This document shows, piece by piece, positions 1 to 7,039 of a stretch of DNA of 64,000 nucleotides. Below the pieces are notes generated by a model. The model ran no database searches and was not told where the DNA came from. It saw only the letters and a program-made list of their open reading frames with translations. How positions within the stretch are numbered: position 1 is the stretch's first letter; every line of letters starts with the position of its first letter. Origin of the DNA: Marinobacterium litorale DSM 23545 (GTDB lineage Bacteria; Pseudomonadota; Gammaproteobacteria; Pseudomonadales; Balneatricaceae); contig NZ_AUAZ01000001.1 of assembly GCF_000428985.1 (NCBI RefSeq), forward strand, positions 248,001 to 312,000, in the 5' to 3' direction. A program made the translations under genes and the position numbers.

Positions 1-1793
1 GCGATCATCTGAGGGGTTGCCGGTGTTTCGTCGTCTGGCCGTTCTGTCCCAAGCAGGCGGGTGGTGGAGGACTGCCCCAGGTAGCGCACCAGCAGGCCGA
101 ACAGTTCACGTCTGCTGGCCTGGCCCTGCCAGATGGGGGCCTGCTCCGCTTCGGGCTTCAGTGCGTTGGTAAAAAGCGCCGCCTGAGTCTGTTCAAGATG
201 ACCCGGTCGGGCAAACAGTGAAATGCCGACCAGCAAGCCGATATTGACCAACATTGTCCAGAACAGCGCATGCGTATAGATATCCCAGCCTTCAAGCCCG
301 AACAGGGCGTAGGGGCGTAACGTCTCGATACCGAAAGGCCCCTGCTCGATAAAACCGGTATCAAGCCAGCCCGACAGGGCAAAGCCCGGAATCAACAGGG
401 TCCAGGCCCAGACCAGGATACCGGCGATCATACCGCAGGCTGCCCCGGTACGGCTGGCACCACGCCAGTAGAGGCCGAGCAGCAAAGCGGGGGCAAACTG
501 GGCAGCCGCGGCGAAAGAGACCAGGCCGATAGTGACCAGACTGTATGCCTCGCCGATCAGGGCGTGGTACAGATATCCGAGAATCAGGATGAAAACGATA
601 GCCACCCGTCGGATACCCAGCAACCAGCCGGACAGGTCTCGCCTCTGATCAAGCTGCAGGGCTCGCCAGCGCAGCAGCAACGGCATCACCAACTGGTTGC
701 TGACCATGGTTGAAAGCGCGATGGTTTCCACGATCATCATGCTGGTCGCGGCTGACAAGCCGCCGATAAAGACCAGCATCGGCAACCCGTTAAGCCCTGC
801 CGAGAGCGGCAGCGTCAGCACATAGTTATCGGGCTCACCGGTCGTACTCCCACCCAGCATGCCGGCCAGGGCAATTGGAATTACAAACAGGTTGATCAGC
901 AGCAGATAAAAAGGGAACAGCCAGCAGGCACGCTTCAAATGTTCTTCGTTGACGTTCTCCACCACGAGCACCTGAAACTGGCGTGGTAGCGTGATGAACG
1001 CCAGCATCGCGAGAATCAGGGTGCCAAACCAGCCCAGCGCGCCCCCGGGAATCTGCTCCAGGCCAAAGTGATGGGCGGCTTCAGGCAGGAGCTGGGCGGC
1101 CGTGGCAAACAGGTCAGCCGGCCCTTGGTAGAGCACAAAGGTGGCAAACACACCCACGGCCACGAATGCGAACAGTTTGACCAGTGACTCAAACGCGATA
1201 GCGGTGACCATCCCCTCATGCCGCTCGCTGGCGTCCAGGTGGCGGGTACCGAACAGAATGATAAACACGGCCAGCACCAGCGCGACCCAGAACGCTTTAT
1301 CGTTCCAGAAACCTGTCAGCGACAGAGCCGGTGGCGTTTGTCGGGGATACTCCGTCAGAATACCGTAACTGACCGTGATCGCTTTCAGCTGCAGGGCGAT
1401 ATAGGGCATGATCGCCACGATTGCGATGGCCGCGACCAGTGCGCCCAGTGCGCCACTCTTGCCATAACGCGCGCTGATAAAGTCGGCAATGGAGGTGATG
1501 CGCTGAGCGCGGGCGATACGGATCATCTTGCGGATCAGCATCCAGCCACAGAGCATGGCCAGTGTTGGCCCCAGGTAGATCAGCAGATAACTTAATCCGG
1601 TGGTGGCGGCTCGCCCCACACTGCCATAGAAGGTCCAGGCGGTGCAGTAAACGGCGATAGACAGCGCGTAGATCGTGGGTGAGTTGACCAGTGAACGGCG
1701 TTGTTCCGCCCGCCGGTCGCCCCAGGCGGCAATGATGAACAGCAGCGCCAGATAGCTGAAGGAGATGGTCAGCACCAGCCCTTCAATCCTCAT
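1..1793 (-). CDS. CbrA-like Na+/solute symporter-sensor protein (N-terminal part, runs off left edge)
   Basis: An open frame of 597 codons runs leftward from ATG 1793 to the window edge without a stop; I translated it by hand. It has about 13 hydrophobic segments typical of the sodium:solute symporter (SSS) family, followed near residues 540-580 by a soluble stretch (RRELFGLLVRYLG) resembling the STAC linker of CbrA-type sensors. In that family the linker is followed by PAS, histidine kinase and often receiver domains, which would lie beyond the edge. The start overlaps the end of the small membrane protein upstream, as in Pseudomonas cbrXA. Likely role: membrane sensor coupling a transported nutrient to phosphorelay. 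It could be a pure symporter if the missing part has no kinase. Confidence 0.8.
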   Translation of the reverse strand, partial: MRIEGLVLTISFSYLALLFIIAAWGDRRAEQRRSLVNSPTIYALSIAVYCTAWTFYGSVGRAATTGLSYLLIYLGPTLAMLCGWMLIRKMIRIARAQRITSIADFISARYGKSGALGALVAAIAIVAIMPYIALQLKAITVSYGILTEYPRQTPPALSLTGFWNDKAFWVALVLAVFIILFGTRHLDASERHEGMVTAIAFESLVKLFAFVAVGVFATFVLYQGPADLFATAAQLLPEAAHHFGLEQIPGGALGWFGTLILAMLAFITLPRQFQVLVVENVNEEHLKRACWLFPFYLLLINLFVIPIALAGMLGGSTTGEPDNYVLTLPLSAGLNGLPMLVFIGGLSAATSMMIVETIALSTMVSNQLVMPLLLRWRALQLDQRRDLSGWLLGIRRVAIVFILILGYLYHALIGEAYSLVTIGLVSFAAAAQFAPALLLGLYWRGASRTGAACGMIAGILVWAWTLLIPGFALSGWLDTGFIEQGPFGIETLRPYALFGLEGWDIYTHALFWTMLVNIGLLVGISLFARPGHLEQTQAALFTNALKPEAEQAPIWQGQASRRELFGLLVRYLGQSSTTRLLGTERPDDETPATPQMI

Positions 1794-1977
1794 GGCGGCC
1801 CTCCAGAATCAGTGCCGATATAAGTATCACCAGTGCCCAAATCAGGTAGATCGCCACTGGCAGTGCCGAAAAACCAAGGCCCAGTGGGCGGTCAAACAGG
1901 AGTAACAGGGGCGGGGAGAACAGCAGAAGCGCCAGAATCGTCAGTGCCAGTAAACGGCTTTCGGCGCGCTTTCTCAT
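1783..1977 (-). CDS. small two-TM membrane protein, CbrX-like
   Basis: This 64-residue protein has a basic N terminus (MRKRAESR) and two hydrophobic segments at about residues 9-27 and 35-59, separated by a short DRPLG loop. Its 3' end overlaps the start of the SSS sensor by 11 bases, and its own start overlaps the stop of the exonuclease fusion by four bases, so all are probably translationally coupled. In Pseudomonas a small membrane protein, CbrX, precedes cbrA in the same overlapping way. The size, topology and position match; sequence homology to CbrX itself is not proven here. Confidence 0.7.
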   Translation of the reverse strand: MRKRAESRLLALTILALLLFSPPLLLLFDRPLGLGFSALPVAIYLIWALVILISALILEGRHED

Positions 1978-4016
1978 GATAATGCTCCCTGTTTCTGGAA
2001 CTCCAGAGCGTCTCCCAGGTTCATAACGCCCCGGCTTTCCAGGCGCGGAATCAGCGCCAGCACCAGCTCGGCGGTTACCCGGGCATCGCCCAGCGCCGTG
2101 TGGCGAGTGCCGGGGGGAAACTGGATCTGGAAGCGGTCGGCCAGCGCATCCAGGCCGTGGGCTTCCAGTGTGGGGTCAAGAGCTCGGGATAATGCCAGAG
2201 TGTCCAGTACCGGCATATCAAACTGCAACTCGCTGCCTTCCGCTGCCAGGTTCAGAGCCAGCAGATCGAAGGCGGCATTATGAGCAACCAATACACCCCG
2301 GCCCACATATTCCCGGAAGCGCGGCAATACGACCGCCACCGGAGGTGCCTGGTTTACATCGTCATCGCACAGGCCATGGATCCGGGTGCTTTGTGGTGGA
2401 ATCGGGCGCTCCGGATTGACCAGTTGATCATAGTAGTCCTGTGCCAGCAGGCGTCCGTTAACAATCCGGCAAGCTGCCAGACTGATAACCCGATCGCCTT
2501 TGCGAAGCTCCAGCCCGGTCGTCTCGGTATCGAAGACCACCATCTCAAGTTGTGTCAGAGGGATCTTCTGTAACTGGCTATCGGGTGGGGGTAACTCCGC
2601 GATACTGAAGTCGTGAAACTCCGGACGTGCGTCCCGGTCGGTTGTCAGCGCCGGTGTCGCTGGCTCCAGACCGCGCTCGGAGGCGGGGAGTGGCAGACGC
2701 AGGCAGGCCAGGCCTCTGCGAGCCCCGGCCCGGGACCAGAGCTCTGCCCCATGCTGTGAGAGGACATCGGAGATCCGGGGAGAGAAGGGGTCATCGAACA
2801 GCGCGGTCGTCTCCCATTGCTGGATACGGGCGTGGCTGATCGGCTCTCCGTGCCAGGTGAGATCCAGATAAACCCGCCGGTTGCCCAGAAGCGGCTCGAT
2901 ATCCAGGGCATTGATCGACACCTCTTGCTGCAGCAAGCGAATCAGTACCGACAGCATTGAGAGTACGGCCGGGGCATCCACCTTCAGCCAGACCGGGATC
3001 CCCACCGGTGTGATGCTGATCTGTTGATCGGCGAGTCTTTCGCTCAGTGCCGCCAGCAGATCATTGGACCAGGTCTCCTCCAGCCGTGCCTGGGAGAGCT
3101 GCTGCGATTCGATCACCCGGGTCAGTCCGTCCAGTTCTCTGGCCAGTGCATCCCCTTCCTCGATAATAGCGCCGTGTAGACGGTCAAGTATCTGTGGATC
3201 ATCAGTTGCCTGCTCCAGTAGCTGGGCGGCGCTGTTAAGACTGCCCAGGTGGCCTCTCATCCGGGGGACCAGCGTGGCCAGTGAGCGGCGCCAACTTTGC
3301 TCCGCAGAGAGCTCGTGGGTCGTATCGTGAAGCGTGATCAGTGCCCCGCCATGACGCGCTCCGAGACGGCGCAGATCGCAGCGGTACCAACGTGAGCGTC
3401 CGGGCAAAAGCAGCTGGCGCGGGCTGCCATTATCAGGCAGCTGGCGCAGAGTTTCTCCCAGACTGGAATGTGGAATCAGCTGGGAGATACTGCGGCCCAA
3501 CCCAAGCGCCGGGTTCTCGGCAAATACGTTCTGAGCGGCGGGGTTAAACAGCAACAGTCGCTGGTGGCGGTCACAGATCAGCAGGGGTGTGGCGAGCTCC
3601 TGAACAACGCTTTCCAACTCCTCCTGAATAAACGCGGCCTTGCCTGCGCCTTCCTGGTGAGCGTGTTCAATCCGTGCCCGATCTTCGCGCCAGCCGCTGC
3701 GTATCCTGTCGAGATCCGGCTCCAGATTTATCAGCCAGCCGGAAAGCGGGAAATCGCCGCGGGCATCCGGGCTGGCTATCAGCCGTGCCAGCAATACTTG
3801 AAGCTGTCGTAGCGGTGCCAACAGCTTGCGCTCCAGCAGTGCTCCGCCGCACAGGACCAACGCGCCGGGCAGGAAAGCCAGACACCAGACAACGATCCGG
3901 GAGGGGCCGTCCAAGGTGTTTCGGGTTTCCAGCCATGCGATCAGGCCCAAGGGGATAAACAGACAGGCGCCGGCGAGCAGAAGCCAGATGCCGATCAATT
4001 GCTGGCGGGAGCGCAT
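1974..4016 (-). CDS. membrane PAS/degenerate histidine kinase fused to DEDDh 3'-5' exonuclease
   Basis: About 680 residues. Two membrane segments (about 8-30 and 42-64) are followed by a PAS-like region (about 130-235), a kinase-like region (240-440) and a C-terminal DnaQ-like exonuclease (about 490-670). The exonuclease shows the full DEDDh set: DTETTG, HNAAFD, and HTALGDA. The kinase region is degenerate: the H-box position reads RGHLGSL, and no clear N box or glycine-rich ATP loop is visible. The ATG at 4016 is preferred over TTG 4022 because GGAG lies about 7 bases upstream and it follows the receiver gene's TGA closely. It sits between a receiver protein and the CbrXA-like pair. Domain assignment is firm; cellular role is unknown. 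Confidence 0.82.
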   Translation of the reverse strand: MRSRQQLIGIWLLLAGACLFIPLGLIAWLETRNTLDGPSRIVVWCLAFLPGALVLCGGALLERKLLAPLRQLQVLLARLIASPDARGDFPLSGWLINLEPDLDRIRSGWREDRARIEHAHQEGAGKAAFIQEELESVVQELATPLLICDRHQRLLLFNPAAQNVFAENPALGLGRSISQLIPHSSLGETLRQLPDNGSPRQLLLPGRSRWYRCDLRRLGARHGGALITLHDTTHELSAEQSWRRSLATLVPRMRGHLGSLNSAAQLLEQATDDPQILDRLHGAIIEEGDALARELDGLTRVIESQQLSQARLEETWSNDLLAALSERLADQQISITPVGIPVWLKVDAPAVLSMLSVLIRLLQQEVSINALDIEPLLGNRRVYLDLTWHGEPISHARIQQWETTALFDDPFSPRISDVLSQHGAELWSRAGARRGLACLRLPLPASERGLEPATPALTTDRDARPEFHDFSIAELPPPDSQLQKIPLTQLEMVVFDTETTGLELRKGDRVISLAACRIVNGRLLAQDYYDQLVNPERPIPPQSTRIHGLCDDDVNQAPPVAVVLPRFREYVGRGVLVAHNAAFDLLALNLAAEGSELQFDMPVLDTLALSRALDPTLEAHGLDALADRFQIQFPPGTRHTALGDARVTAELVLALIPRLESRGVMNLGDALEFQKQGALS

Positions 4017-4018
4017 GA

Positions 4019-4399
4019 TCAATCTCCATCAGGTATCTGGGCCAGCAGCGACTGCACCCGCGTCACCAGCTCTTGCGTTGAGAACGGCTTGGTGACGTAA
4101 TCATTGGCCCCCAGTGCAATGCCTTTCTCCTTCTCGACCTCCCGCCCGTGGGCTGTGAGCATGATGACCGGCAGCGATGTACAGGCTGGGTTAGCGCGTA
4201 TCTCCTCCAGCAACTCAAAGCCGCTGGTATCGGGTAGGCTGATATCGAGCAGTACGATATCCGGGTGGCTTGCCTCGAGGTGCTCCCGGGCCTGGGCGCC
4301 TGTCGCGGCTGTCAGCACCTGAAAGCCGGAGCGCTGCATCAGAAACTCCAGCGAGAGCAGAATGTTGGGTTCGTCATCTACGATCAGAACCTGGGCCAT
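4019..4399 (-). CDS. single-domain response regulator (receiver only)
   Basis: A 126-residue CheY-like receiver with all key residues: acidic pair D8-D9 (IVDDE), phosphoacceptor D52 (VLLDISLPD), T82 and K104 (VTKPF). There is no output domain, so it acts by protein-protein contact. It is first in the leftward operon with the exonuclease fusion, the CbrX-like protein and the SSS sensor; its stop lies only two bases from the next start. The natural partner is the SSS sensor kinase or the kinase-like fusion, by inference from the operon. Confidence 0.9.
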   Translation of the reverse strand: MAQVLIVDDEPNILLSLEFLMQRSGFQVLTAATGAQAREHLEASHPDIVLLDISLPDTSGFELLEEIRANPACTSLPVIMLTAHGREVEKEKGIALGANDYVTKPFSTQELVTRVQSLLAQIPDGD

Positions 4400-4606
4400 T
4401 GGTACTCCTTACTTCGTTTTTGCACCGAAGGGTAGCGGGGAAAGGCTCTACAGGCAGTCTAGTGCGGGTTGAACAAAGTTGGTAACCGGTGGTAGCGGAG
4501 GATAACCGTAAAGTAGCAGCGAAAAAGTCGCGGCTTTGCTTTTTATCGCAGGTGCAACAGAGTTAAAATGCGGGTTTTATTGCTTCGCCAAGATAAAGGA
4601 ACTGCA

Positions 4607-5317
4607 ATGCTGATCGATAGGTTGCGTCAGGGCGCTGTGCTGGCTGCCGCTACGTTGACATTAACCCTGTCAACACAGGCCCACAGTGAGACGGAGGCGG
4701 ATCCATGGGAAGGGTTCAACCGTGCCATGTTCTCGTTTAATGAGCAGGTCGACCGTTATGCGCTCAAGCCGGTCGCTCAGGGCTATCGTTTCGTGATGCC
4801 TGACCTGGCGGAGCAGGGCGTATCCAACTTTTTCGACAACATCGGCGATGTGGGCTCTGCCGTCAATAATCTGCTGCAGGGCAAAGTGGATGCGGCATTG
4901 ACCAGTGTGACCCGGGTTGTTTTCAATTCGACGATTGGTCTGGCCGGTCTTATCGATGTGGCGACCCCCATGGGGCTGGAAGAGAAGCCGGAAGATTTCG
5001 GTCAGACTCTGGGCTACTGGGGAATGGGGTCCGGACCCTATCTGGTGCTACCGTTGCTCGGGCCGAGTTCTGTGCGAGATGGGCTTGGACGTATACCGAA
5101 TAGCATGCTTGATCCGGTTTCCGACGTTGATCACGTTCCAACCCGCAACTCCCTGTACGGGCTGCGTCTGATCGATGCGCGCGTGCGGCTGATGACAGCG
5201 GAACAGATCATTTCGGGTGATCGATACATCTTTGTGCGGGATGCCTATTTGCAGCGCCGTCAGTTTTTAGTCCATGATGGCCAGATACCCGTACGCTACG
5301 ACGATAACGACTTCTGA
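4607..5317 (+). CDS. mlaA: MlaA/VacJ-family outer membrane phospholipid-transport protein
   Basis: The protein has the MlaA hallmarks: DPWEGFNRAMFSFN near the N terminus, then the DFGQTLGYWG and GPYLVLPLLGPSSVRD motifs. MlaA sits in the outer membrane and removes mislocalised phospholipid from the outer leaflet. ATG 4607 is chosen over 4568 because AAAGGA lies just upstream and the following residues form a signal peptide. The signal ends in TQA-HSE and has no lipobox cysteine, so it looks like a signal peptidase I substrate; E. coli MlaA is a lipoprotein. The gene stands alone here, without mlaBCDEF. Confidence 0.9.
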   Translation: MLIDRLRQGAVLAAATLTLTLSTQAHSETEADPWEGFNRAMFSFNEQVDRYALKPVAQGYRFVMPDLAEQGVSNFFDNIGDVGSAVNNLLQGKVDAALTSVTRVVFNSTIGLAGLIDVATPMGLEEKPEDFGQTLGYWGMGSGPYLVLPLLGPSSVRDGLGRIPNSMLDPVSDVDHVPTRNSLYGLRLIDARVRLMTAEQIISGDRYIFVRDAYLQRRQFLVHDGQIPVRYDDNDF

Positions 5318-5387: not shown

Positions 5388-6551
5388 ATGAGTCTCAGAG
5401 AGCAGGCGATCCTGATGGTGTCGGCCTCGACAGCTGTCACTGATCTGATATTCGAGCTCTGCGAACAGTGTGAAAGTGAACACCTGCGCATTTTCGTTGC
5501 CCGCACGACGGACGAAGTGGAGCACCTGCTTGAGCATCGTATGATCTCGATGGCGATCGTCGACCGGTCGACTCTCTCCGATCTGCCCTATCTCAGTCAG
5601 CTGGCGCGCGCTATAAACCCCATGCCTACAGTCGCTCTGGTAGAGGAAGGAACCGCGGAAAGCCTGGTGGCGTCGTTACGTAATGGGGCCGACGATGTTT
5701 TTTCTCTGACAGAGTTGCAGACCCATCCTGAGCTGTTCGTTGATGCCATGACGCGCCAGCTCAAACGGGTGCAGATGATCGAAGAGGCGCGTTTCTTGCG
5801 AGAGAGCCTGGAGCGCAGCCTTGATGAGCTGCGCGCCGACCAGCACGCCGCTCAGCAGCTTCAGCAGAAGCTGTTGCCGCCGCCGGTTCGCGAACTCAAC
5901 CACGTCTGTTTTCAATATATCCTTCAGCCCAGCCTGTTGCTCAGTGGCGATTTTGTCGACTCAATAGCCATCAACGAGAATCAGACGGTTTTTTACCTGG
6001 CCGACGTATCCGGGCACGGAGCCTCGTCTGCACTGGTCACGGTGTTACTGAAAAACATGACCTACCGCCTGGTACGAAACTACAACCGCAACTCCAGTTT
6101 TGATATCCAGTCGCCGCTGGCAACGTTACACCGGGTCAACCGTGAACTGCTGTTGACCGGTCTGGGTAAACATCTCACGATGTTTATCGGCCTGATTGAT
6201 GAAAGGGACTCCAGTCTGACCTATGCTGTTGGGGGGCATCATCCAATGCCAATTCTCAGGCAACGGGGCGAGGCGGTGTATCTCGAAGGACGGGGTATGC
6301 CGATCGGTTTGTTTGAAGAGCCGGTATTCGATGAAAGACGTATTGATCTGGACCCCGAGTTTTCGCTTACCCTGTTCTCGGACGGAATCCTGGAAGTAGC
6401 CGAAGGTGAAACACTGGAAGCGAAGGAACAGCTTTTGCTGGAGGCGTGTAAAGGTAAAAATCTGTCGCCCCAATCAATTTTTGACTGTATCATCCCGGTC
6501 GGGCGCATAAACCCGGACGATGTAGCGATCATGACGGTAACTCGAGTGTGA
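5388..6551 (+). CDS. degenerate receiver + PP2C (SpoIIE-type) serine phosphatase
   Basis: 387 residues. The first 125 fold-match a receiver but lack the usual acidic pair; only the D in AIVDRS is in place. A helical linker (about 125-170) leads to a PPM/SpoIIE phosphatase with metal-binding aspartates in SGDFVDS, LADVSGHGASSAL, FSDGILEV and NPDDVAIM. Such proteins dephosphorylate a STAS anti-anti-sigma partner, and a STAS gene follows with a four-base overlap. The layout resembles HsbR-HsbA of Pseudomonas, but HsbR also has a C-terminal serine-kinase domain that is absent here. Likely role: input arm of a partner-switching circuit controlling motility or stress response (inference). Confidence 0.87.
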   Translation: MSLREQAILMVSASTAVTDLIFELCEQCESEHLRIFVARTTDEVEHLLEHRMISMAIVDRSTLSDLPYLSQLARAINPMPTVALVEEGTAESLVASLRNGADDVFSLTELQTHPELFVDAMTRQLKRVQMIEEARFLRESLERSLDELRADQHAAQQLQQKLLPPPVRELNHVCFQYILQPSLLLSGDFVDSIAINENQTVFYLADVSGHGASSALVTVLLKNMTYRLVRNYNRNSSFDIQSPLATLHRVNRELLLTGLGKHLTMFIGLIDERDSSLTYAVGGHHPMPILRQRGEAVYLEGRGMPIGLFEEPVFDERRIDLDPEFSLTLFSDGILEVAEGETLEAKEQLLLEACKGKNLSPQSIFDCIIPVGRINPDDVAIMTVTRV

Positions 6552-7039
6552 CTATGAGCGATGGCTCTATTTTTTACGCCTGTCGCGACGGCCATTACGT
6601 TCTGAAGTTTGTGGGTGAGGTGCGTCTGACGCTCTGCTCCACAATCGATCTGCACCTGGAATCTGTCCTGGCACGCCGCGAGATCAGTGATACGCTGATC
6701 GATCTGACCGAAACCACCACGATTGACAGTACCTCGCTGGGGTTGATCGCCAAACTCGCGATCAAGGCCTCTGAGCTGGGCATGCCGCGCCCGACGCTGA
6801 TCTCCACCAATCCTGATATTACCCGGATACTTTATTCCATGGGGTTTGATCAGGTTTTCCTGTTGCTCGACAGTGTGCCCACCAGTGGGGTCGATCTTGA
6901 GCAGGTGCCCTTTGTACAGGAATCCGAAGACCAGGTGCGAGAGCGGATTATCGGCGCACACCGGGTGTTGATCGACCTTAACGAAGCCAACCGGGCGGCG
7001 TTCAAAGACCTGGTGGCAACGCTGGAGAACTGCAGTTAG
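6548..7039 (+). CDS. STAS-domain anti-anti-sigma factor, HsbA-like
   Basis: About 160 residues; the first 100 form a STAS domain with the phosphorylatable serine region TIDSTSLGLIAKL, and the remainder is a charged C-terminal extension. The length matches HsbA-type proteins. The start is GTG 6548, overlapping the phosphatase stop (GTGA), or ATG 6554 two codons later. It is the expected substrate of the upstream PP2C phosphatase; when dephosphorylated such proteins bind an anti-sigma factor such as FlgM. The partner and regulon cannot be read from this window. Confidence 0.85.
   Translation: MTMSDGSIFYACRDGHYVLKFVGEVRLTLCSTIDLHLESVLARREISDTLIDLTETTTIDSTSLGLIAKLAIKASELGMPRPTLISTNPDITRILYSMGFDQVFLLLDSVPTSGVDLEQVPFVQESEDQVRERIIGAHRVLIDLNEANRAAFKDLVATLENCS

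Follow-up and report, generated by a model that had tools for sequence, protein, structure and literature searches.

A lone receiver, a pseudokinase-exonuclease fusion and a transporter-type histidine kinase form a conserved cassette that points to a possible nutrient-linked on/off switch

The window analysed here, a stretch of 64,000 nucleotides from Marinobacterium litorale DSM 23545 (contig NZ_AUAZ01000001.1, positions 248,001 to 312,000), opens with four closely packed genes on the minus strand. One of them (1974..4016) encodes a fusion protein of 680 residues in which a membrane-anchored PAS region, a pseudo-histidine kinase and a DEDDh exonuclease follow one another. A sequence-only reading of this DNA had described the protein as a degenerate membrane kinase joined to an intact exonuclease, in a CbrXA-like operon with a lone receiver, a CbrX-like protein and an SSS sensor, and all three neighbours were indeed found beside the fusion. 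The receiver (4019..4399, minus strand) is a protein of 126 residues with no output domain (Pfam Response_reg, E 4.9e-32), in which D8, D9, D52, T82 and K104 are present and which is predicted to be phosphorylatable. Its stop codon is separated by 2 bp from the start of the fusion gene, whose stop overlaps by 4 bp the start of a 64-residue open reading frame (ORF; 1783..1977, minus strand) that overlaps in turn the sensor gene by 11 bp. A GGAG-like site precedes each of the four genes, and a scan of positions 4300-4700 for promoters and terminators found nothing.

The 64-residue ORF, a putative two-helix membrane hairpin, matched no NCBIfam model and is called CbrX-like on account of its position at the kinase start and its two hydrophobic segments. 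CbrX itself is described as a hairpin bound to CbrA (PMC13022988). The SLC5-type histidine kinase (3..1793, minus strand) has 597 of its 917 residues inside the window and its HisKA and HATPase_c domains outside; the full gene in the genome encodes SSF, HisKA and HATPase_c domains (Pfam). Over positions 7-670 it aligned (42%) with another kinase of the same genome, which we label CrbS-like, and this alignment spans the region in which a STAC domain would lie. By its domains, and by the CbrX-like ORF overlapping its start, the sensor resembles the SLC5/STAC kinases CbrA, CrbS/MxtR and RpuS. The description of the operon as CbrXA-like holds for the sensor and the small hairpin; it fails for the partner, since CbrA and CrbS systems work with a transcription factor, CbrB or CrbR, whereas here the adjacent partners are the 126-residue receiver, which has no further domain, and the exonuclease-bearing pseudokinase, not a CbrB-type REC-AAA+-HTH regulator.

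The fusion gene is a real ORF, with an ATG start at 4016 and a TGA stop at 1974-1976; residue numbers given below follow a 682-residue frame beginning at a TTG codon at 4022. By hydropathy, two membrane segments were located at residues 7-25 and 39-57, and two such segments were also present in 93 of the 103 fusion homologues longer than 650 residues. The hidden Markov model search proposed by the earlier reading was carried out with Pfam and matched a PAS domain at residues 134-235 (3318..3623, minus strand) and RNase_T at residues 495-653 (E 6.6e-29), while neither HisKA nor HATPase domains were detected up to an E value of 1. The exonuclease domain as a whole (residues 495-655; 2058..2540, minus strand) also matched PolC and the DnaQ epsilon subunit in the PDB. 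Between the PAS domain and the exonuclease, residues ~235-449 (2676..3320, minus strand) form a degenerate DHp and ATPase-like core, the fold of which was recognized by structure prediction, by Foldseek and by profile-profile alignment. In the AlphaFold2 model, built from 12 homologues (mean predicted local distance difference test score, pLDDT, 80.6; predicted template modelling score, pTM, 0.41), long N-terminal helices are followed by a PAS-like region, DHp-like helices at 235-271 and 276-308, an ATPase-like domain at 315-447 and a poorly ordered linker (pLDDT below 50 at 451-472) ahead of the exonuclease. With this model, Foldseek retrieved sensor kinases (WalK, 4i5s, ThkA, DivL) and, separately, DnaQ, ExoX and RNase T.

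A total of 106 fusion loci were aligned, 27 of which had been found by similarity and 79 by a motif pattern, and the usual definitions of the H-box, N-box, DEDDh and nucleotidyltransferase motifs were applied. The five catalytic residues of the window protein are D498, E500, D586, H641 and D646, and all five were intact in 27 of the 27 similarity-found loci and in 79 of the 79 pattern-found loci. The patterns of the GTDB contig scan include the first three catalytic residues, so that D498/E500 or D586 are partly guaranteed in the loci found in this way, whereas H641 and D646 are absent from the patterns and the 27 similarity-found loci are free of this bias. Because the patterns contain parts of the first two motifs, these 27 loci, together with the histidine and the last aspartate in all loci, constitute the fair test. 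A motif [RK]-P-x-[FY]-[YH]-D-F was found ahead of the exonuclease in 87 of the 106 loci, at a distance of 31 residues in 70 of these.

The kinase core gave the opposite picture. No H-box pattern and no N-box pattern was present in any of the 106 loci, and the column of the acceptor histidine is occupied by proline in the window protein and by glutamate in 67 of the 106 homologues; ATP-lid motifs were likewise judged missing when the alignment was inspected by eye. In the neighbouring SLC5-type kinases, the H-box was found in 70 of 71 and an N-box-like motif in 71 of 71. Global profile-profile alignment of the fusion core with the intact cores of these kinases nevertheless gave a probability of 99.6% over 215 columns, and the pseudokinase is therefore best regarded as a relative of kinases that has lost catalysis, a loss that most simply predates the spread of the fusion family. 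A complete and standard kinase was thereby ruled out. The earlier statements that every DEDDh residue is present and that the kinase-like core has no clear N box or ATP loop were borne out in the window protein, and the intact DEDDh set and the missing N-box pattern hold throughout the 106 loci. An origin of the fusion by chance or artefact was also rejected, as its matches contained no internal stops and the order of domains was constant in the 27 similarity-found loci. In a tree of 68 leaves comprising fusion exonucleases, exonucleases associated with DUF294 proteins and DnaQ, 28 fusion exonucleases, picked by hand from the 106 loci, formed a single clade (support 0.943). The fusion domain has the fold and the motifs of DnaQ epsilon and PolC, and is 29-34% identical to chains of PolC and of Escherichia coli epsilon; unlike them, it has no link to a polymerase.

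The loss of the exonuclease in homologues would have weakened the case for a novel device, and the class was searched with an N-terminal query of 481 residues devoid of exonuclease (E up to 1e-6). Matches were obtained in 22 of 369 class genomes; 18 of these carried the fusion, each with its exonuclease, so that absence of this domain in homologues was ruled out. In the remaining four (G109, G118, G163 and G397), the match was a kinase of the usual kind that has an H-box, and the stretch contained no exonuclease motif. The whole fusion was present in 9 of 38 close relatives, and the GTDB contig scan gave at least 545 confirmed fusion relatives. Among the best 80 of these, which were kept, are Halomonas, Vreelandella, Marinobacterium, Ectothiorhodospira, Colwellia, Azospirillum, Stappia, Magnetococcales, Thauera, Dechloromonas, Azonexus, Rubrivivax and others; contigs from metagenome-assembled genomes labelled Nitrospirota, Acidobacteriota, Desulfuromonadales and Caldilineaceae are possibly misbinned. 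Judged from these sequences, the cassette is found across Proteobacteria.

The surroundings of the fusion were surveyed in 107 loci. The fusion, the call of which also requires an exonuclease match above 60 bits, was recognized in 106, a count in which related species appear more than once and two genomes (G105 and G236) contribute two loci each; short flanks left 32 of the 106 outside the full-flank count and 6 outside the receiver count. The excluded locus (L137 9697-12085), from a Halomonas metagenome-assembled genome, has a fusion broken across several frames, by sequencing error or decay. A receiver lay within 1.5 kb of the fusion in 88 of the 100 loci with at least 1 kb of upstream sequence, upstream and on the same strand in 87, and the cassette receivers kept the acceptor aspartate in 79 of 80 and the lysine in 80 of 80 aligned proteins. 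In the 74 loci flanked on either side by 6 kb or more, an SLC5-type kinase was found within 6 kb in 59, a DUF294 gene within 8 kb in 49, one or the other in 67, and an ActP-like transporter within 8 kb in 24. When a strict rule based on hydropathy was applied, a two-helix CbrX-like ORF directly preceded the kinase in 38 of 69 cases. In the 38 close relatives, an orthologous kinase (648-1305 bits) was present in exactly the 9 fusion genomes, the next-best match (528 bits) lying within a longer CrbS-like protein; an orthologous DUF294 gene (at least 347 bits; next 129) was present in 8 of these 9, the exception being G019, and in none of the 29 others. By sequence, the cassette is conserved as receiver, fusion (two membrane segments, PAS, pseudokinase, DEDDh), CbrX-like ORF and SLC5-type kinase, usually with DUF294 nearby, and among near relatives it has been gained and lost largely as a unit. 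Four fusion copies (L087, L088, L171 and L173) were observed with no receiver or kinase found nearby; the first three are divergent from a 557-residue SSS-type transporter gene, and in L173 a similar gene lies upstream.

The DUF294 protein of the cassette is encoded just outside the window (G000:C1:245949-247145; L063 7949-9145), convergent with the SLC5-type kinase; in this genome the two genes lie tail to tail and their 3' ends overlap by ~105 bp. It is a predicted nucleotidyltransferase of 398 residues with DUF294 and DUF294_C domains (Pfam, fold model). The GS...DxD active site, a nucleotidyltransferase signature, is present, and G101, S102, R105, E107, D113, Q114, D115 and N116 were invariant in 16 of 16 DUF294 proteins. 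CBS domains were found in 4 and cNMP-binding domains in 2 of the 5 DUF294 proteins scanned; the cassette protein carries neither. When the structural model (pLDDT 90.7, pTM 0.87) was compared with the PDB, only four chains were matched at E below 0.001: two of the C-terminal adenylylation domain of GlnE, one of the GlnE N-terminal domain, and DrrA. These are enzymes that add AMP to proteins or remove it from them. Weaker matches were aminoglycoside nucleotidyltransferases (from E 0.03), HalB (0.15) and RNA uridylyltransferases (~0.5). A sequence-profile search of the PDB was uninformative, as the 60 matches listed of 105 were all of the CBS type, owing to query rows bearing CBS domains. From the model, DUF294 is predicted to be a GlnE-like nucleotidyltransferase. 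This agrees with the grouping of DUF294_C with the C-terminal domains of GlnD and GlnE (PMC3710099) and with a prediction of 1999 that DUF294 nucleotidylates proteins (as cited in PMC5715377). Pflu5625, a protein with cAMP-binding, CBS and nucleotidyltransferase domains, is likewise predicted to act by nucleotidylation, and its mutant is reported to have no phenotype (PMC5715377).

DUF294 was detected in 25 of 25 fusion genomes tested, belonging to 19 genera, with best matches of 122-164 bits. A cut-off of 75 bits was set by us to separate DUF294 from GlnD/GlnE-like frames; matches below it were mostly long frames, as expected for GlnD and GlnE. In a class sample of 114 genomes, 32 had DUF294 above this cut-off, with 42 domains in all, and all 7 fusion genomes of the sample were among them (P 8e-5; 6 of 6 without the M. 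litorale genome, P 3e-4), these P values being computed after the data were seen and without control for genome size. Furthermore, DUF294 was associated with DEDDh exonucleases well beyond the cassette. Of the 42 DUF294 domains, 26 had a DEDDh-type domain no more than 3 kb away, which was downstream on the same strand in 23 cases, in the same frame in 2 and the fusion in 1; one protein with lost exonuclease residues (L204) is included in the 26. When the seven fusion genomes were left aside, 21 of 30 DUF294 domains were followed by a stand-alone exonuclease and 2 were fused to one. A DUF294-linked exonuclease or the fusion was present in 29 of the 32 genomes, the others being G141, G085 (contig edge) and G069; the counts 29/32 and 21/30 were tallied by hand. 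The 16 cases with no exonuclease so near comprise three tandem DUF294 genes at 4.7-5.2 kb, three genes that belong to the fusion cassette and lie 3.5-6.1 kb away, and ten with no such exonuclease gene in the stretch. Two of these ten are at a contig edge (G085, and G130, which also has the fusion), five are from genomes with a fusion elsewhere (G111, three in G143, G105) and three remain (two in G141, one in G069). An SSS-type transporter or kinase was present in the stretch of 24 of the 32 DUF294 loci (L175-L206).

The same association is seen within the M. litorale genome, where each of three DUF294 genes is near a DEDDh-type gene. Those at C1:210-212 kb, by a BCCT transporter, and at C3:24-25 kb, by an SSF transporter and a CrbS-like kinase, are directly upstream of it, and a distance of 3.5 kb separates the third from the fusion's exonuclease domain. 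A natural fusion of 699 residues with the order RNase_T-CBS-DUF294-DUF294_C and intact exonuclease residues was found at L203 4825-6924 (minus strand). Judged by gene position, the genomic linkage of DUF294 and DEDDh exonucleases is strong. In an assembly labelled uncultured Comamonas (L140 8112-14355), a pair of DUF294 and stand-alone exonuclease genes lies directly beside a fusion and a second DUF294 gene.

To account for this arrangement, we propose a transporter-coupled two-component system with an enzyme as its output, the signal passing from kinase to receiver to pseudokinase to exonuclease, with DUF294 as a writer and the DEDDh domain as an eraser; a probability of about 0.4 is assigned to this reading. 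The binding or flux of a solute would control the SLC5-type kinase, which would phosphorylate the lone receiver. Since a lone receiver must act through another protein, and the adjoining gene encodes a kinase fold that has DHp-like helices but lacks phosphoryl chemistry, the chain above is the simplest one: the receiver would dock on these helices and thereby alter the exonuclease activity at the membrane. A precedent exists in DivL, a pseudokinase with no acceptor histidine on which the receiver DivK docks and by which it is read; DivL (4q20) is itself a kinase-fold match of the fusion model, and is not known to carry an enzyme domain of the exonuclease kind. Ligand- and phosphate-gated action, close to the ligand- or phosphate-gated degradation put forward in the sequence-only reading, is a fair interpretation, given that the exonuclease is kept in homologues and the kinase motifs are absent in 106 of 106 loci. 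That reading had also proposed DNA, RNA or a nucleotide signal as substrate; as a DUF294 gene lies outside the window, the likely substrate moves from bulk DNA or RNA towards a nucleotide mark added by DUF294.

The less certain part of the proposal concerns this mark. Because the frequent genomic companion of the exonuclease is a GlnE-like nucleotidyltransferase, the simplest substrate is the product of that enzyme. DUF294 might attach a nucleoside monophosphate (NMP) to a protein that has a part in taking up or using the solute. The DEDDh domain might strip it by hydrolysis of the phosphodiester bond, with the bond chemistry of exonuclease action; DEDDh enzymes free 5'-NMP in this way, and removal of AMP or UMP from tyrosine gives the same product. 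Writer and eraser together would then adjust the target to the amount of solute available. Unlike GlnE and GlnD, which carry their own removal domain (a second nucleotidyltransferase and an HD domain, respectively), DUF294 would have its presumed eraser in the DEDDh protein. That DEDDh domains in these systems reverse protein nucleotidylation, acting on a DUF294-modified transport or metabolic protein and, in this family, switched by the transporter-kinase through a phospho-receiver docked on the pseudokinase, is a tentative idea, on the doubtful side.

Published genetics bear on this point in Pseudomonas putida, whose protein PP_0354 we take to be a DUF294 protein. PP_0354, with a CBS domain, and PP_0353, an RNase_T protein, are encoded in one operon, which adjoins actP in some species and is controlled by an SLC5/STAC kinase (PMC9927547). 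According to the same paper, growth on pyruvate is impaired by deletion of the exonuclease gene PP_0353 and by deletion of the transporter ActP-I, and is left unimpaired by deletion of PP_0354. Such an outcome would be predicted if PP_0354 wrote an inhibitory mark and PP_0353 erased it. The operon belongs to the MxtR/ErdR acetate-pyruvate regulon, and a similar set of genes, DUF294 and RNase_T by an SSF transporter and a CrbS-like kinase, is present in the M. litorale genome (L090). PP_0353 differs in being a small protein, whereas the exonuclease studied here is part of a membrane pseudokinase that has a dedicated kinase and receiver beside it.

Several observations weigh against the proposed writer and eraser. 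No DEDDh enzyme is known to us to take nucleotides off proteins, and the enzymatic activities of all parts of the cassette are predicted ones. In the PDB, the fusion exonuclease is nearest to DNA-proofreading enzymes (PolC, DnaQ epsilon), and its net charge fails to separate it from DnaQ. The arrangement of the domains in the fusion model is unreliable (pTM 0.41). No DUF294 gene was found within 8 kb in 25 of the 74 well-flanked loci, some of which end at 6 kb, and no nearby receiver in 12 of 100. PP_0353 belongs to a related regulon and is not this protein, and the lack of phenotype of PP_0354 could mean that it has no role. In addition, a protein at L204 4177-6270, with a layout like that of L203 by profile, has lost the exonuclease residues and gave no RNase_T match at E 0.001, and the second aspartate aligns with glutamate in 17 of 23 stand-alone exonucleases partnered with DUF294 (L091 9117-9872 and others), which may reflect altered chemistry or a misplaced column. 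From these last two observations, the DUF294/exonuclease pair may not always consist of two opposed enzymes.

Other explanations were weighed against the same data. The chain of kinase, receiver and pseudokinase could gate a 3'-5' exoribonuclease by which transcripts of transport or central carbon metabolism are trimmed or degraded, DUF294 being a separate regulator or an RNA tailing enzyme. The DEDDh active site and the RNase_T match agree with such signal-gated RNA turnover, and degradation of mRNA is what the authors of PMC9927547 speculate for PP_0353, although they call the mechanism behind the mutant phenotype unclear. The DUF294 model, however, fits protein adenylyltransferases and not RNA tailing enzymes, uridylyltransferases being reached only at E ~0.5, and we consider this explanation unlikely. 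The charge of the exonuclease does not decide on it: the domain is net negative, as is that of DnaQ, and charge was dropped as a clue to the substrate. The linkage of a writer-like and an eraser-like gene would also be expected if DUF294 made a small oligonucleotide, linear or cyclic, that was destroyed by the DEDDh enzyme. DEDDh enzymes acting on dinucleotides do exist, oligoribonuclease destroying pGpG, and the CBS and cNMP-binding domains of other DUF294 proteins would suit a nucleotide messenger, although the cassette protein lacks them. With no significant match of the DUF294 model to CD-NTases (HalB, E 0.15) and a C-terminal helical domain that is grouped with those of GlnD and GlnE, this seems improbable.

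It is decidedly improbable that the exonuclease fold serves for binding, with no enzymatic use, and that the two-component system is ordinary in all other respects. The same protein does retain a kinase core without catalysis, and the L204 protein combines DUF294 with an exonuclease domain deprived of its residues; the conservation of all five catalytic residues in every fusion locus, including the 27 not chosen by motif, is nevertheless best explained by selection on catalysis. An enzyme of DNA repair or scavenging, standing by chance beside a sensor operon, is very improbable indeed. Its closest solved relatives are proofreading exonucleases, and in the M. litorale genome, as in one relative (L067), DUF294 is preceded by sbcD and sbcC. 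The stretches covered for the other 25 of the 27 loci, however, showed no sbcCD match save a weak antisense one of 93 residues in L078, while receiver and kinase recur, and sbcCD was excluded as a member of the cassette. Moreover, the fusion is a membrane protein, and PP_0353 is reported to be dispensable for growth with DNA (PMC9927547).

Work on SLC5-type kinases deals with their control, at the level of transcription, of the use of acetate, pyruvate and histidine. In the widespread branch considered here, the adjacent partners have no DNA-binding domain and the signal seems to end in an enzyme of nuclease fold, and the cassette suggests an on/off switch, as yet undescribed, that is tied to the uptake of nutrients. 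Signalling by a two-component system that starts from a transporter-kinase would be of a known kind; an exonuclease-bearing pseudokinase as output would be new. In the open-access literature searched (one library), we found no description of a receiver/pseudokinase-exonuclease fusion or cassette, no paper holding both "DUF294" and "exonuclease", and no target of DUF294. The tie with DUF294 gives both families a testable role and could explain the P. putida mutant phenotype. If the DEDDh domains do act as erasers switched in this way, they would represent a new class of enzymes that undo protein nucleotidylation, and the cassette a new type of output for two-component systems.

Elsewhere in the window, a SpoIIE-type phosphatase gene (5388-7039, plus strand; Pfam match only at residues 197-385) is followed by a gene for a STAS protein, the two being a likely partner-switching pair. 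A SpoIIE gene was also found near the cassette in three relatives of the same genus (L064-L066).

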